A program made the position numbers and the translations under genes. A stretch of 64,000 bases of DNA. Origin: Candidatus Uhrbacteria bacterium (lineage in GTDB: Bacteria; Patescibacteriota; Patescibacteriia; 2-12-FULL-60-25). Shown here piece after piece: positions 37,937 through 45,022 of this stretch. Below the pieces are notes generated by a model, which did no database searches, was not told the DNA's origin, and saw nothing but the letters and a program-made list of their open reading frames with translations. How positions within the stretch are numbered: position 1 is the stretch's first letter; each line of letters begins with the position of its first letter. Where the stretch lies: positions 124,001 to 188,000 of the forward strand of contig JADZEJ010000002.1 in assembly GCA_020850575.1 (NCBI GenBank), written 5' to 3'.

Positions 37937-38090
37937 ATATTTGCTGAAAGCTTACTTGGAAATATCTAAAATGACAAACAGTATTGACACTGCAATTTTT
38001 TAAGCGAACAAACAGAACGTTAAAAATGTGTTACGACTTTCATTACAGCATGCCTTACTTGAATTGTGTATACTTGTAATCTATTACGTT

Positions 38091-38507
38091 ATGCCTTATC
38101 CATTTCCCAGACCTCCTATTCATGAGCTTCGCGTTGGTCGTAGTGCAACAGGTTTTGGAATTTTTGCTATTCACCCTATCCCCGCTCGATCTTTCATTAT
38201 CGAATATTGGGGTAAAGTGGTTTCAGATGAAAACGCTAGCATGGTTGGTGGACGATATTTATTTGAATTGGGAAACGGGAAAACGATTTTGGGTAGTACA
38301 CGCAAGAATACCGCAAGATATGTTAACCATGCTTGTAAACCAAATTCTGAAGTGCGTATTTCTAAAGATCGTATTTATATTTATTCGCTAAAAAGAATTA
38401 AGGCTGGCGAAGAGATCACTTATGATTATGGAAAGGAATATTTTGATGCATTTATCAAGCCTTATGGATGTGCATGTATAAAATGTATTAAAAAGAAAAA
38501 ATATTAA
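38091..38507 (+). CDS. SET-domain protein
   Basis: 139 residues from the ATG at 38091; the longer reading from 38028 lacks family similarity. A compact SET domain: GRSATGFGIFAIHPIP, IIEYWGKVV, NTARYVNHACKPNSEV (the NHxCxPN motif of the pseudoknot) and EEITYDYGKEYF, then a post-SET cysteine cluster CACIKC that with the NHxC cysteine could hold zinc. It should transfer methyl groups from S-adenosylmethionine to lysine; the bacterial target is unknown. Single gene between an unknown gene and the restriction genes. Confidence 0.85.
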   Translation: MPYPFPRPPIHELRVGRSATGFGIFAIHPIPARSFIIEYWGKVVSDENASMVGGRYLFELGNGKTILGSTRKNTARYVNHACKPNSEVRISKDRIYIYSLKRIKAGEEITYDYGKEYFDAFIKPYGCACIKCIKKKKY

Positions 38508-38550: not shown

Positions 38551-39525
38551 TTACCACGCAATATCTATAAAAAACAAGCTAGACGGTTGCCCTAATAATT
38601 GAATATCGAACTTTAAGCTGGGTTCAACTTTACTGCTGGCATTGTGTATCCTGAAAGATATAGCCCAACCATTATCCATTGTTAGATGTACCGTTGCTTT
38701 TGAATTATCCTTGAAGGCTAATTCTATAATCCTCGTAGGCAGGGTTATGGTCGGAATTAAAGTATCTGGTGCTTTAGTGTCGCTCGCTTGATTAAGTAAG
38801 CCGTAGATATTGTAAGGAATTACTTTAGCGGTGTGATTGTTGTGGTGTATTACCTTGTAATAATCATACCCATTACTGCCAAGCAAATATTTAATCAAGC
38901 CAGTAGTAACATTATCATTATGATTAGTGTAAGCACGCTGTAATTCGCCCATAAAGGCATTTAGAACTGGGATATATACACTTTGTTCTTTGTTGGGTAC
39001 ATCACGCCATTTAACACCTTGTGTTTTTAGGTTTTGAAGTTTCGTAAATAGTAACGAAATCTCATCAAAATACTGCTTTGTCACTGGTATTCCATACCAT
39101 GCATTACCAAAATCTATCTTTTTACTTAAGCGAGAATGTTTCAATGCTTCGTGATTGTGCTTTACGGATATTCCAATTTCCCACTTGATATCATGACGAA
39201 TAATGAGAACATCTCTGATATCTCCAGACCCAGCGACACTATCAGGTTGAATAGACACTGTTATGGGGTTGGTACCGTCCTCAATAATTTTAGGTTCCAT
39301 TTTAATAATGGCGTTTACACCAGCTTTTGCAGAGGCGAGCATATCTCCGCGCTCTGTATCTGTAATACCATTGAGGTACCTATTGCGAGCTATATCAAGA
39401 CTTGAGTTTTCTATAATTTCAATGGGTCTGATTGATTGAACGATTTCTACGAGAGCGATAATGCTGGCGTATTCGTAAGCTTTGCCTCTGATAGTTGAGT
39501 TGATTGTACTTCTGCTATTGACCAT
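38551..39525 (-). CDS. HaeIII-type restriction endonuclease (GGCC)
   Basis: 324 residues, the expected size of HaeIII-family type II enzymes. Its identity is inferred mainly from the adjacent methyltransferase, whose similarity to M.HaeIII is strong, and from the family-like end of the protein; a candidate catalytic core is GSGDIRDVLIIRHDIKWEIGISVK, with D/E-x-K spacing of a PD-(D/E)XK nuclease. Its start lies 79 bases inside the methyltransferase gene, so it is made after, and in limited amounts relative to, the methyltransferase. Predicted cut at GGCC. Confidence 0.7.
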   Translation of the reverse strand: MVNSRSTINSTIRGKAYEYASIIALVEIVQSIRPIEIIENSSLDIARNRYLNGITDTERGDMLASAKAGVNAIIKMEPKIIEDGTNPITVSIQPDSVAGSGDIRDVLIIRHDIKWEIGISVKHNHEALKHSRLSKKIDFGNAWYGIPVTKQYFDEISLLFTKLQNLKTQGVKWRDVPNKEQSVYIPVLNAFMGELQRAYTNHNDNVTTGLIKYLLGSNGYDYYKVIHHNNHTAKVIPYNIYGLLNQASDTKAPDTLIPTITLPTRIIELAFKDNSKATVHLTMDNGWAISFRIHNASSKVEPSLKFDIQLLGQPSSLFFIDIAW

Positions 39526-40508
39526 ACGTCTTTCAATTCCTCTTTTATTTGTTCAGCGATCGCTTGTGCTAGTTTGATGGGTACGGCATTGCCAATCATT
39601 TTGTAGCCATTTGCAACATCTTTGTATAAAAACTTGTATGTGTCTGGAAAAGTTTGAATCCTAGCACATTCACGAACGCTCAATCTTCTATACAGATGTT
39701 CTTTACCTTCTACAAAAATTTGTTTGTTCTTTTCTACTTTAACCATCTTTGGGGCTTTAGGGTGTAGCGGTGCTTGACGACCACCAGCCTGAATAGTAAA
39801 TGACGGCTCGTCCCAAGCACGCACACGATTACGAGACATGAATATGGACGAAAAACCACCAATCATATATTCGTGATTATCAATGTCTAGCTTGCCATTC
39901 GTTTTATTTTTTTCTAAGGCTGGCATCGCCTCCGGCAAATCACTAATCGCATCTTGAAGTGTTGGCCTTTTTTTCTTAATCTTTGGAAAAGAAAAGGTTT
40001 TGTTAAAGTCTTTTCTATAACCAACGATAATTACACGTAATCTATCTTCCGGAACTCCATAATCGTTTGCGTTTACAAGTTTCCAGCTAATATTGTAGCC
40101 AGCACTTTCAAAATCTTTAAGAAAGCCATTAAAACTATCGGCATGTTTTGGTGCTAATATGCCAGATACATTTTCCACTAAAAAGAACTTAGGCTGTTTA
40201 ACTTTAAGAATGCGAATATAATCGTTAAACAATTGTCCACGATTATCGGCTATACCACGACCAGCCCCAGCCTCGCTCCAACTCTGACAAGGCGGACCCC
40301 CGACTATACCGTCAGCTTCCGGTATTTCATCGGCACTAACATCTGTTATGCTACGTTTGTCTAATTTTGTATGTTGAAAGTTGAGCTGAAAGGTTTCCCA
40401 AATAGTCTTGTCATACTCGTTTGCCCAAATTGTGGTAAAACCAGCATTTTCAAAACCAAGGTCCAAGCCTCCAGCCCCTGTAAATAGAGAAACTATTTTT
40501 AGGGTCAT
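39447..40508 (-). CDS. DNA (cytosine-5-)-methyltransferase, M.HaeIII-like (GGCC)
   Basis: 353 residues with all C5 methyltransferase motifs: I FTGAGGLDLGFENAGF, IV GGPPCQSWSE with the catalytic Cys, VI ENV, VIII and the recognition region containing SSIFMSRNRVRAWDEPSFTIQAGGRQ, IX RECARIQTFPD and X GNAVPIKLA. The match to M.HaeIII extends through the target-recognition part, so GGCC is the predicted site. The extra 20-residue C-terminus (AKLTNTPALSLS) is the part that overlaps the endonuclease gene. Confidence 0.92.
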   Translation of the reverse strand: MTLKIVSLFTGAGGLDLGFENAGFTTIWANEYDKTIWETFQLNFQHTKLDKRSITDVSADEIPEADGIVGGPPCQSWSEAGAGRGIADNRGQLFNDYIRILKVKQPKFFLVENVSGILAPKHADSFNGFLKDFESAGYNISWKLVNANDYGVPEDRLRVIIVGYRKDFNKTFSFPKIKKKRPTLQDAISDLPEAMPALEKNKTNGKLDIDNHEYMIGGFSSIFMSRNRVRAWDEPSFTIQAGGRQAPLHPKAPKMVKVEKNKQIFVEGKEHLYRRLSVRECARIQTFPDTYKFLYKDVANGYKMIGNAVPIKLAQAIAEQIKEELKDVWSIAEVQSTQLSEAKLTNTPALSLS

Positions 40509-40901: not shown

Positions 40902-42581
40902 TTAGAGTGAACGAATGAGTTTCTGGGCCCGCTCTTCTGCGGTTCTAAGATACTCTTCGACATCATCCAATTCTCTCAGCTCCCGATGATTTAGAAGAAG
41001 AATTCGGTCAAAACCGATTCGTTCAAGAAAGTATCGGTCATGAGAAACTAGTATGATCGTGCCCTCGAAGTTTGCGAGAACCTCTTCCAAAGCCTCACTC
41101 GCTTCGAGATCGAGATGATTCGTCGGTTCATCGAGAACTAGAACGTTTTTTTTCTGTTCAGCAAACAAGCCAATCAGAAGTCTAGCCCTGGCTCCGGGAC
41201 TCAAGTTTTTTATTGGTTCCCGAGCGCGATCTTTAGGAAGGATGGAGAAGTGGTTTAGCAGCTGGAAGGCGTTTACTTCTTCGATTTTGCATCGTTCCAT
41301 CAAAAAATCGATAGCCGAAGCATTTCGAGGAAGAGATTCATGTTCCTGCAGCATGTTCCCCATCAATACACCCGGTCCGGGTTTAACTTCCCCAGTCAGA
41401 GGTTTCAGGATTCCGCACATGGTTTTGAGGAGAGTTGATTTTCCTGCACCATTTGTACCAAGAATATTGACACGTTCGCCAAAGGGAATGTTCAATGAGA
41501 TAGGTGCCGTGGTGTATCCGTTCGGATAACCAGCTACAACATTATCGAGATTTATGTCAGCGCTCCCATGAAGCACTTCTAGGTCAACCTCAATATGTAG
41601 CCGATCACGAAATGTCGGACGTTCGATGCGTTTAATCTGCTCGATTCGTTTTTCCATCGCAGCCGCACGACGCCCTGAGCCTGCCGCCCGGTCACGTTTG
41701 AACCCACGAAGAAACTTGTCGTTATCAGTCCCTCTCCAGCTAGAACCACGTAGGGCTTTAACTCGAAGAGTTTCCACACGACGTTCAAGACCAGCGATTT
41801 CTTTCTGCTGTCTGTCGTGAGCTGCAGCTTGATTCTCCATTATTCTTTCTCGTTGTTCGAGATAGGAAGAGTAGTTCCCGTTGGTAACGCTTGTCGTGCG
41901 CTTAATCCAATCAAGAACGACGATTTTTGTCGCGATTTGATCGATGAACCGTCTGTCATGCGAAACGAAAAGGATGGTTCGAGAAGATTTTTTGAGATAC
42001 TGCTCGAGCCAGATGATTGCCGGGAGATCCAAGTTGTTTGTCGGCTCATCCAGGAGCAGGATGTCGTCGTCACGCAAAAGGATGGCGACAAGTCCTACTT
42101 TGTGTTTTTGTCCACTACTCAGGTTTGACATGGGATGGAGCATTGAATCGCGCCCAATTCCAAGTCCTTCGAGCATTGTTTCAGCACGATGCACGAAGTT
42201 GTACCCACCGCATCTTTCGAAGCGATCTTGGAGATCCCCGTAATGCATGAGCTGTTCCTGATGAGACAGATCTTTCGAAAGTTCTTCCAGTTTTTGCTCA
42301 ATTGCACTGATCCCTGTTTCGCCACGAAGATACTCCATGACAGTTACATTAATGTGCTGACTTGTGTCTTGTAGGAGATAACCAATGGTTTGGCTCACTC
42401 CGAGCGATATTGTTCCGGAGTCTGGTTTTTCGACACCTGCAAGCATTTTCAGAATAGTTGACTTACCGGTTCCGTTATAGCCAACGAGGGCAGCATGTTG
42501 ACCATCACCAAGATTAAACGTTGCATCTTGAACGACAACGTTCCCTTGATATGACTTCATTAGCTTTTCTACGTTTAGCAT
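40902..42581 (-). CDS. ABC-F ATPase
   Basis: About 559 residues from the ATG at 42581; a GTG at 42638 would add 19 residues inside the upstream gene. Two ATP-binding domains without membrane spans: Walker A GYNGTGKS and GTNGAGKS, signatures LSSGQKHK and LSPGARAR, Walker B LLLDEPTNNLDL and VLVLDEPTNHLDL. A long charged linker (about 240-310) corresponds to the P-site tRNA interaction motif and is rich in Arg/Lys. ABC-F proteins act on the ribosome in translation quality control or antibiotic resistance. Here it is the last gene of the peptide cassette, overlapping the phosphorylase gene by 68 bases. Confidence 0.9.
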   Translation of the reverse strand: MLNVEKLMKSYQGNVVVQDATFNLGDGQHAALVGYNGTGKSTILKMLAGVEKPDSGTISLGVSQTIGYLLQDTSQHINVTVMEYLRGETGISAIEQKLEELSKDLSHQEQLMHYGDLQDRFERCGGYNFVHRAETMLEGLGIGRDSMLHPMSNLSSGQKHKVGLVAILLRDDDILLLDEPTNNLDLPAIIWLEQYLKKSSRTILFVSHDRRFIDQIATKIVVLDWIKRTTSVTNGNYSSYLEQRERIMENQAAAHDRQQKEIAGLERRVETLRVKALRGSSWRGTDNDKFLRGFKRDRAAGSGRRAAAMEKRIEQIKRIERPTFRDRLHIEVDLEVLHGSADINLDNVVAGYPNGYTTAPISLNIPFGERVNILGTNGAGKSTLLKTMCGILKPLTGEVKPGPGVLMGNMLQEHESLPRNASAIDFLMERCKIEEVNAFQLLNHFSILPKDRAREPIKNLSPGARARLLIGLFAEQKKNVLVLDEPTNHLDLEASEALEEVLANFEGTIILVSHDRYFLERIGFDRILLLNHRELRELDDVEEYLRTAEERAQKLIRSL

Positions 42582-43407
42582 ATAATTTGTTGTCACTTTG
42601 GTTGTAGTATTCTCTGATGCGGCTAGCTGCACAGCCACAGGTAAGTTTACCTGCTCCTGTGACCATGTTTTGAAGTGCTTTAATCGTCTTCTCTGTGTTC
42701 TTATGAAACACTTTTAGTACCTTCGAAAGATCGGACGGATCCATGCTCATCGTCTGTTCGGTGCCCACATCGTAATCGGTGACTGAAGCGAATGCTGCAT
42801 AGCATACACCTAGTTCCCGAGCGAAGAGGCATTCAGGGTATTGTGTCATGTTGACTACATCCCATTTTTGTCTCATGAAGAAACGACTTTCCGCTTTTGT
42901 CGAAAAGCGTGGACCTTGGATGACAACGACGGTTCCCTTTCTTTGAACTCGTCGGTTCGTTTCTTTCAACCCTTGGATGACCAAATCGCGTGTAACGGCG
43001 CAATATGGTTCGCCCATGGGTAGATGAAGAAATGAGCCATCTTTCTCAATGCACTCGTGATCTCGTCCATGCGTCAGGTTGACGAACTGGTCTAGTACAA
43101 CGAATGAACCGGGCTCGATTTTCTTTTTGAGACTGCCTACGATGCAAGTCCCAATGATGAATTGAACTCCTAGCGACCTTAGAGCCCAGATATTTGCTTT
43201 ATATGGGATCTTGCTGGGCGCAAGTTGGTGCTTGGTTCCATGCCGAGGCAAAAAGGCGGCTTTGATGCCACCAATCTTTCCGGTAAGAACAACATCTGAA
43301 GGGTTCCCGTAGGGTGTCTCGATTCGATGCGTTTTTGTGTTGCTATGGAAGATCTCCTTGTCCTCCATGCCGGATCCGCCGATTATGCCAATGAACGGTG
43401 GTCTCAT
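42514..43407 (-). CDS. MTA / 5'-deoxyadenosine phosphorylase-like enzyme
   Basis: 297 residues of the purine nucleoside phosphorylase family, MTAP branch. N-terminal GIIGGSGM phosphate loop, the FLPRHGTKHQLAPSKIPYKANIWAL stretch, QGPRFSTKAESRFF, and the substrate loop NMTQYPE followed by ASVTDYDV match 5'-methylthioadenosine phosphorylases; several of these also split 5'-deoxyadenosine. Radical SAM enzymes release 5'-deoxyadenosine, so its place directly after one (four-base ATGA overlap) suggests by-product removal. A GGAG Shine-Dalgarno lies upstream. The Cys-rich tail (CGCAASR) fits the family. Confidence 0.85.
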   Translation of the reverse strand: MRPPFIGIIGGSGMEDKEIFHSNTKTHRIETPYGNPSDVVLTGKIGGIKAAFLPRHGTKHQLAPSKIPYKANIWALRSLGVQFIIGTCIVGSLKKKIEPGSFVVLDQFVNLTHGRDHECIEKDGSFLHLPMGEPYCAVTRDLVIQGLKETNRRVQRKGTVVVIQGPRFSTKAESRFFMRQKWDVVNMTQYPECLFARELGVCYAAFASVTDYDVGTEQTMSMDPSDLSKVLKVFHKNTEKTIKALQNMVTGAGKLTCGCAASRIREYYNQSDNKLYAKRRKANEVISRERCRSRCNV

Positions 43408-44741
43408 GTGTTCTTCTCCTCGTTCGGTGCTTCAAGCCACAGAGCGATTTCAAACATGGTCAATGAGAACTGTTTTGCAGCCTCATCTGTATGCCACGGG
43501 TTACCATACGCATCGATACTGCTCCATGCGCATCCGTTACCTGCAAGAGCCTTTCCGTCTTCGTCTTTAAAACTAGGGTCTTCGAGGGGTGACCGTTTTC
43601 GCCACTCCTCAACGACTTTCGTTTGAGAAATTCGGAAGCTCTCTGGCAAGAGTGCTACATGACCCAGCTTCGCATCGTAGAAGGGGCAGTTGCTTACTCC
43701 GCCATCAGCTCGAATGACGAGTTGATTGCCATAGCATGTGCAATCTATTGGGAAAAATGCCCTTTCTTTGAATGCCCTGATCTTTTTTTCGACCTGGTAT
43801 TCGTAGGAGGCGTCCCCCGTTGAACGGTATCGGTTGATAATTTCCTCAACAGAAGCGTTAACGAAGCTCATACGGTTCTCTTCCGAGACCATATCGATAA
43901 GTCCCTTCCCTTTCAGGAAGTTGATTCCGTACTTCGTTACTCCGACTTCTTGCAAGAGCTTATCCAGTTCTTGGAGGCTCCCTAGGACGTGGGGCGTGAG
44001 ACTAGTTGAAACAGCTGTCCGCACTCCATGCACCTGAAGCATTTTTAGCTTCGCAAGAATGTCATCATAAGTGCCGTTGCCGTTCGTTGCGTAGACACGC
44101 AATTTGTCGTTGCGTGACTTAGGTCCGTCAACTCCCAGCGCTACCAACACGTCGTGCGTTCTACACAACGACATGAGATTCTCGTCGAGAAGCGTGCCAT
44201 TTGTCGCCAGCATCATAGCCGTGCCTACGGGTAGGCTTCCGTTTGATTTTCGACGAGCGATTTCTTCTAGACAGAAGCAGAAGGTCTCTTTGTTTAGAAG
44301 AGGTTCGCCCCCGTAGAAGATGATGTAGTTCTCATCTGCGTTACTCTCTTTGACGTGTTTTTCCCAAAGATCTAGACCGGCACACGCATCCTCTTTAGAC
44401 AGGCACTTGGAGCGTTCTGCCTCCGAAAGACGCGGGATCGGGCAATAACCGCAGGAGAAGTTGCAGCCTTGCGCAAGAATCAGGTAGAGGATGCGCGGCA
44501 CGGAAAGTGATTCCTGTGCCATCTTTTTTGCATCCACATACGCTTGATCATCAACAAGATCGGTTTCTATTAGAAGACCCTCTTTCATGAGGTCATCTAT
44601 CCAATCGAAATAACGCGTCATGTCGCCTTGGAACTCATCCCAATCTGACTTTTTGATGTAAATTGGGACCGGATGGAGTTCATGGAACAGAACTACGGTG
44701 GGGCCACGTTCTCTAAGACACAAATACCTTGATGTTTTCAT
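43404..44741 (-). CDS. Radical SAM/SPASM peptide-modifying enzyme
   Basis: 445 residues. An N-terminal 85-residue region (with DDLMKEGLLIE resembling a recognition-element winged helix) precedes the radical SAM barrel: CNFSCGYC at 93-100 (CxxxCxxC cluster), the SAM-binding GGEPL at 144-148 and ATNGTLL. The C-terminal SPASM-like part carries Cys334, Cys336, Cys352 and Cys404 (IDCTCYGNQLVI, SNCPFYD, GNGCAW), room for extra iron-sulphur clusters. This architecture belongs to maturases of ribosomally made peptides (for example PqqE, MftC, AlbA, sactipeptide enzymes). Shine-Dalgarno AAGGAG is eight bases before the ATG. The likely substrate is the 63-residue peptide upstream. Confidence 0.9.
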   Translation of the reverse strand: MKTSRYLCLRERGPTVVLFHELHPVPIYIKKSDWDEFQGDMTRYFDWIDDLMKEGLLIETDLVDDQAYVDAKKMAQESLSVPRILYLILAQGCNFSCGYCPIPRLSEAERSKCLSKEDACAGLDLWEKHVKESNADENYIIFYGGEPLLNKETFCFCLEEIARRKSNGSLPVGTAMMLATNGTLLDENLMSLCRTHDVLVALGVDGPKSRNDKLRVYATNGNGTYDDILAKLKMLQVHGVRTAVSTSLTPHVLGSLQELDKLLQEVGVTKYGINFLKGKGLIDMVSEENRMSFVNASVEEIINRYRSTGDASYEYQVEKKIRAFKERAFFPIDCTCYGNQLVIRADGGVSNCPFYDAKLGHVALLPESFRISQTKVVEEWRKRSPLEDPSFKDEDGKALAGNGCAWSSIDAYGNPWHTDEAAKQFSLTMFEIALWLEAPNEEKNT

Positions 44742-44762
44742 GTGAAGATTCTCCTTTTAGTA

Positions 44763-44801
44763 AAAAGGGTTGTTTCCTGCATGAGAGGATTCAACCCTTT
44801 T
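44763..44801 (-). terminator. Hairpin between peptide and radical SAM genes (possible attenuator)
   Basis: Minus-strand stem AAAAGGGTTG/CAACCCTTTT (10 bp, 19-base loop) followed by TTTTT, placed 30-67 bases after the peptide stop and 21 before the radical SAM ATG. A partial terminator here would give more peptide than enzyme. A second, imperfect hairpin (44813-44834) overlaps the peptide stop codon. Confidence 0.55.
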
Positions 44802-44830
44802 AAAAATAGTGGCTGGTCGCGTAACTGCGA

Positions 44831-45022
44831 TCAGTCTTTGGCGAGCTCATCCTTGAGCTGCACCCTTTGTTGCGCATTCAAACGGACCTTTTGTCCGTCA
44901 TCGCCCACGATCTCAATATCGCCCCCTTCGAGGCGATTGAGCGTGGGGCAACAGCCCTGAACGCCGCAGTTGAGAACCACAGAATTGACCACCGTGGAGG
45001 ATTCTTTTTCATGATTGGACAT
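44831..45022 (-). CDS. 63-residue cysteine-containing peptide, candidate RiPP precursor
   Basis: Short acidic peptide with Cys19, Cys24 and Cys25 in LNCGVQGCCPTLNRL, then a charged strand-turn-helix second half (DIEIVGDDGQKVRLN, then QQRVQLKDEL). No signal peptide or membrane span. The gene has a strong AGGAG site nine bases before the ATG and sits directly upstream of a radical SAM/SPASM enzyme, the classic place for a precursor. Unusually the cysteines are in the first half rather than at the C-terminus, so if this is a RiPP the recognition part may be the C-terminal half. A small metal-binding protein is the main alternative. Confidence 0.65.
   Translation of the reverse strand: MSNHEKESSTVVNSVVLNCGVQGCCPTLNRLEGGDIEIVGDDGQKVRLNAQQRVQLKDELAKD

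Follow-up and report, generated by a model that had tools for sequence, protein, structure and literature searches.

Sactipeptide and ranthipeptide systems such as SkfA-SkfB, CteA-CteB and AlbA place a short cysteine-containing peptide beside an enzyme built from an RRE, a radical SAM barrel and a SPASM or Twitch domain. The locus described here appears to share that layout, and its enzyme is nearest in fold to CteB while carrying a reduced set of cysteines, as SkfB and other Twitch enzymes do. It differs in that its peptide belongs to another family, in which a Cys loop precedes the conserved C-terminal half, and in that it lacks a transporter or peptidase and adds an MTAP-like phosphorylase and an ABC-F ATPase. 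The top-scoring named maturase family was FibroRumin (TIGR04136; Campylobacter plasmid NZ_CP012551), but at 118 bits against a cut-off of 400 we rejected membership. The FibroRumin enzyme is 26% identical and, unlike ours, has a CX2CX5CX3C block; its peptides have 7 or 8 Cys, mostly in a single Cys-rich stretch, unlike the cassette peptide, and no MTAP or ABC-F is annotated alongside. Ribosomal-protection-type ABC-F proteins also occur within the biosynthetic cassettes of producers, where TlrC, CarA, OleB and SrmB give protection from macrolide-type compounds and further small molecules. The ABC-F of our locus resembles them in its setting, but its partner in the cassette is a radical SAM peptide, and it reaches 262 bits against a producer-model cut-off of 800. 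Finally, graspetide clusters, which rely on ATP-grasp chemistry and other precursors, have been reported from Patescibacteria/CPR (PMC8939145), so the host, which an earlier note on this DNA had called unusual, is not unprecedented for RiPPs. That note knew of no described system with exactly this gene set, and in the open-access literature we likewise found none that combines an ABC-F, a radical SAM enzyme and a precursor peptide. The cassette thus seems to be undescribed, although each of its themes has precedents, in radical SAM RiPPs, in MTAP salvage and in producer ABC-Fs.

Gene order and distribution of the cassette

The window is a 64,000-nucleotide stretch from a genome of the phylum Patescibacteria (1.04 Mb, 7 contigs, estimated 100% complete). 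Four ORFs lie on its minus strand, where the earlier note had placed them: a precursor-like peptide gene (44831-45022; 63 aa, ATG start, AGGAG ribosome-binding site) whose product carries the motif LNCGVQGCCPTL then DIEIVGDDGQKVRLNAQQ; a radical SAM enzyme that is a candidate peptide maturase (43404-44741; 445 aa, AAGGAG ribosome-binding site); an MTAP-like phosphorylase, proposed to act on 5'-deoxyadenosine (42514-43407; 297 aa); and an ABC-F ATPase of the ribosomal-protection-like group (40902-42638 from a GTG or 40902-42581 from an ATG). The family assignments of that note also hold (PF04055, E=4e-15; PF01048, E=5e-35; the NCBI ribosomal-protection-like model NF000355, with 396 bits where 380 are required), as does a 4-base overlap between enzyme and phosphorylase; a 68-base overlap between phosphorylase and ABC-F is right from the ATG at 42581, but becomes 125 bases from the GTG at 42638. 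The C-terminal tail of the window phosphorylase (42514-42590, minus strand; about 20 residues past EYY) is absent from all relatives and comes from the frame running on into the region where the ABC-F begins. Immediately beyond the downstream end of the cassette, the minus strand at 38551-40508 encodes both members of a HaeIII-type restriction-modification pair, namely RE_HaeIII (E=2e-112) and a C5 cytosine methyltransferase. A small plus-strand ORF at 38028-38507 is SET-domain-like by eye, and genome G017 has an ORF resembling it at a distance of about 8 kb from its own cassette (L026:18448-18870).

Our genome searches covered the phylum Patescibacteria and found seven cassettes, the window included, in seven genera of one class: five genera of one family and two other families. 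The peptide gene immediately precedes the enzyme gene in every one, MTAP comes next in all seven and ABC-F follows in six, with constant order and 36-57% protein identity. Enzyme homologues of 40-54% identity occur in four further genera of the window's family, each genome also having the peptide; among 96 relatives searched with both, peptide and close enzyme homologue (at least 39% identity) fall in the same 5 genomes. A peptide profile search of 381 genomes of the class gave 7 matches, each directly upstream of the enzyme, and the two in other families proved to be full cassettes with enzyme, MTAP and ABC-F in unchanged order. The co-occurrence search proposed by the earlier note recovers the set in six other scattered relatives, once (G006) without the ABC-F. 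Enzyme homologues that mostly lack the peptide, which that note had named as grounds against its reading, are not what we see, because all seven close homologues (36-54% identity) carry the peptide gene directly upstream. Elsewhere, a scan of genome contigs matched only the relative G017, viral contigs gave only short radical-SAM-core matches to the enzyme alignment, and plasmids yielded one distant FibroRumin enzyme and no peptide.

That the four genes are adjacent by chance might be argued from how common the radical SAM, phosphorylase and ABC-F superfamilies each are. Against this stand seven cassettes in seven genera and three families with one order at 36-57% identity, and we regard chance adjacency as ruled out for practical purposes. 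The trees of enzyme, MTAP and ABC-F are broadly congruent: each joins G000 with G017 (support 0.995, 0.805 and 0.997), and G013 and G532 stay on the other side in all three. Occurrence is patchy, at 5/41 genomes of the family and 1/10 and 1/36 in two other orders. Cassette GC is foreign in most hosts and departs clearly from its surroundings in several; in the window it is 47-53% against 39%, and excluding peptide genes it is 47-49% against 39% in the window, 44-46% against 30% in G724 and 60-62% against 49% in G017. Congruent trees, patchiness and foreign GC together point to an inherited, transferable unit, and from these sequence data we infer that the cassette moves horizontally as a whole.

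Several observations concern the neighbours of the cassettes and the other enzymes of the phylum. Every cassette except that of the window, six in all, has as a flanking gene one that resembles a P-loop kinase (AAA_18, PRK) or a nucleotidyltransferase (L026:10233-10784, L027:7734-8309, L087:3819-4358, L088:2760-3422, L028:9920-10786 and L029:7244-8008). About 6 kb from the G006 cassette there is a YcaO cyclodehydratase (L028:6-1154; PF02624, E=1.5e-44). Distant enzymes of the phylum (23-31% identity) have neither peptide nor MTAP and were rejected as cassette members; several pair instead with an ORF of about 240 aa (L068:7714-9849, L033:7141-9365, L070:442-2581), apparently metallopeptidase-like where an HExxH-like stretch is visible (HELMH/HELLH in L068). 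These radical SAM/SPASM pairs look like a separate system without a name.

The radical SAM enzyme and its putative substrate

In the AlphaFold model of the enzyme (pLDDT 85, pTM 0.87), residues 7-80 form three strands and then three helices; a radical SAM barrel bearing CX3CX2C comes next, and a small domain completes the C-terminus. The order of strands and helices is that of the RRE topology (PMC8326336), but the N-terminus had no PqqD/RRE match in Pfam. The best Foldseek matches of the model were CteB, TigE, anSME, ChlB, SuiB and SkfB. The enzyme models as an RRE-like domain, a radical SAM barrel and a degenerate SPASM domain. A viperin assignment was rejected, the PADLOC match being at superfamily level only. 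The label SPASM, as the earlier note had it, is half right. The 7-Cys motif of SPASM domains reads CX9-15GX4C-gap-CX2CX5CX3C-gap-C (PMC6231123), and beyond the radical SAM triad only C334, C336, C352 and C404 are invariant across the seven cassettes. CX9-15GX4C and the later C404 are therefore present, but CX2CX5CX3C is missing from all seven, which rules out a full SPASM enzyme; the CX2C...CGGGC block is kept in FibroRumin-type and distant Patescibacteria enzymes. Judged from this Cys pattern, which fits one auxiliary cluster, the enzyme seems to have kept the ligands of auxiliary cluster I and lost those of cluster II, and so seems to be Twitch-like, as is SkfB (PMC6231123).

The peptide matched no family model in Pfam or NCBIfam. 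Its invariant residues across the seven cassettes are C19, G20, G23, C24, C25, P26, D41, V46, L48 and Q52, and the consensus is roughly C-G-V-x-G-C-C-P, then DD-x-GG-x-V-x-L-T-x-x-Q-W, after a variable N-terminus. A short putative precursor gene kept beside a radical SAM enzyme in 7/7 cassettes is what is looked for in a radical SAM RiPP, and we consider it very likely that the peptide is the enzyme's substrate. RiPP operons are known for terminating part of their transcripts just past the precursor gene. A terminator/attenuator-like hairpin lies in the peptide/enzyme gap of the window (44763-44801, minus strand; 21 nt 5' of the enzyme start), where the gap folds with a z of -3.3 against shuffles. 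The same place holds a hairpin in all seven cassettes, about 19-43 nt from the enzyme start, and in a variant locus in genome G135. The best local hairpin energy is -13.8 kcal/mol or lower in 8/8 of these cases against 6/24 ordinary co-directional gaps of the same loci (Fisher p about 3e-4), although the control gaps may include true operon ends; that a strong hairpin also occurs in those six gaps counts against the explanation we favour. Set against the ORFs of at least 100 aa in its locus, the peptide gene ranks first in GC3 in six of eight cases and second in the other two. A hairpin in every cassette together with high peptide GC3 fits an over-produced RiPP precursor.

Other features sit less well with a secreted RiPP. 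The conserved Cys motif comes before a C-terminal half that is conserved as well, which inverts the usual order of leader and core, and no conserved exporter or leader peptidase was found beside the cassettes, unlike most secreted RiPPs, which weakens our best explanation. It is conceivable, if rather improbable, that the product stays inside the cell as a modified small folded protein that acts on its own ribosomes, with the ABC-F as antidote; the Cys loop might then be cross-linked or bind metal, and the role might be in dormancy, phage defence or something toxin-antitoxin-like. Conservation of the C-terminal half as well as of the Cys loop, patchy occurrence and the missing export genes would all suit such a product, as would the bbbb-alpha mini-fold that AlphaFold predicts with the Cys motif in a loop. 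But that model is weak (pLDDT 68, low-to-medium confidence) and a fold search of the PDB returned nothing significant, and in a search of defence families the peptide matched no known family and the enzyme had superfamily-level matches only.

The MTAP-like phosphorylase and the ABC-F

MTAP models score the phosphorylase at 258-268 bits. With TIGR01694 at 258, just under its cut-off of 275, we call it MTAP-like rather than file it as MTAP. The adenine-site Asp pair reads 6-aminopurines, and the window protein has it as TDYD, as in human and Sulfolobus MTAP; six of the seven cassette proteins have TDYD or TDWD, while TDYA in G013 counts against our best explanation. Resemblance to MTAP by sequence would equally suit ordinary methylthioadenosine salvage by an enzyme that merely travels with the cassette. 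We find this unlikely: the gene tracks the cassette in 7/7, its ORF and that of the enzyme overlap or lie almost end to end, and PF01048 proteins are absent from most related genomes (29/41 in the family have none), the phosphorylase being the sole PF01048/PNP-superfamily protein of the window genome. 5'-Deoxyadenosine acts as an inhibitor of radical SAM enzymes and can be cleaved by MtnP (PMC8102628). This precedent, and the carriage of the host's only PNP-superfamily protein on the cassette, support the by-product recycling that the earlier note had suggested; since the Asp pair is also kept, the phosphorylase probably clears 5'-deoxyadenosine.

The ABC-F has two ABC domains by Pfam and passes the ribosomal-protection-like model but not the EttA or Uup models. 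Characterised ABC-Fs extend the tip of their interdomain linker toward the peptidyl-transferase centre. Here all 13 positions of the linker tip, DNDKFLRGFKRDR, are invariant in six cassette ABC-Fs of 42-56% identity. Patchy presence is a mark of resistance ABC-Fs according to an ABCF survey (PMC6723617). Our preferred reading, held at slightly less than even confidence, is that the ABC-F gives immunity to the cassette product. A helper in translating the peptide, for example through GCCP of a highly expressed short ORF, or of stalled ribosomes generally, is another explanation, of low probability in our view. ABC-F proteins are reported to relieve sequence-dependent pauses (PMC11282234), and peptide GC3 bias suggests heavy expression; but the protein passes the ribosomal-protection-like model rather than those of EttA or Uup, and the peptide motif contains a single proline. 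G006 has peptide, enzyme and MTAP with no cassette-type ABC-F there or elsewhere in its genome, so the ABC-F is dispensable in that host, which counts against immunity as part of our best explanation.

The variant in G135, from another class of the phylum, bears on the same question. At L107:5890-9835 it has in a row an ABC-F, a CCP peptide whose ORF begins at or just past the ABC-F stop, the hairpin, a radical SAM enzyme and a TrpD-like PF00591 protein. This enzyme is different from that of the cassettes: it is a full-SPASM protein with a complete CX2CX5CX3C block, and the model it matches best is the geopeptide maturase, at 166 bits where 400 would be needed. Although a single case, the variant suggests that a CCP peptide goes with an ABC-F even where the enzyme has been replaced.

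A working model and its implications

We lean modestly toward a horizontally moving cassette of the radical-SAM RiPP type, which would make a modified peptide, clear the by-product and provide self-immunity through the ABC-F. This reading draws on gene order, the co-occurrence of peptide and enzyme, the trees, the RRE-like fold, the Foldseek matches, the hairpin and GC3; on the sole PF01048 MTAP with its TDYD and the inhibition precedent (PMC8102628); and on patchiness (PMC6723617) and the G135 variant. From the observed gene order, co-inheritance, families, Cys pattern, hairpin and composition we infer every biochemical step that follows. The peptide would be made in excess, with the hairpin stopping most transcripts and a minority reading on into enzyme, MTAP and ABC-F. 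The enzyme would then dock the peptide, probably via its N-terminal RRE, and form a 5'-deoxyadenosyl radical that would install at least one thioether or C-C link at the CGVxGCCP loop, assisted by a single auxiliary Fe-S cluster. MTAP would phosphorolyse the resulting 5'-deoxyadenosine in a host with no other PNP-superfamily enzyme to remove the inhibitor. Lastly, the ABC-F, in the ribosomal E site, might dislodge the mature peptide or restart ribosomes stalled by it, and so confer self-immunity.

We speculate, as a minority possibility, that the whole is a self-contained mobile module of ultra-small bacteria, in which a ribosome-acting, radical-SAM-modified peptide, possibly intracellular, is combined with ABC-F immunity or antidote and a 5'-deoxyadenosine phosphorylase. 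ABC-F immunity is known mainly from makers of small-molecule ribosome inhibitors, and a protective role here would join a radical SAM peptide to that type of immunity. If the reading is true, radical SAM RiPPs would be extended by a further precursor family and by a cassette logic not seen before, dedicated by-product clearance plus ABC-F, and radical SAM peptides would be tied to the ribosome in a way that can be tested. The cassette may also offer candidate chemistry for the ways in which Patescibacteria affect hosts or rivals.
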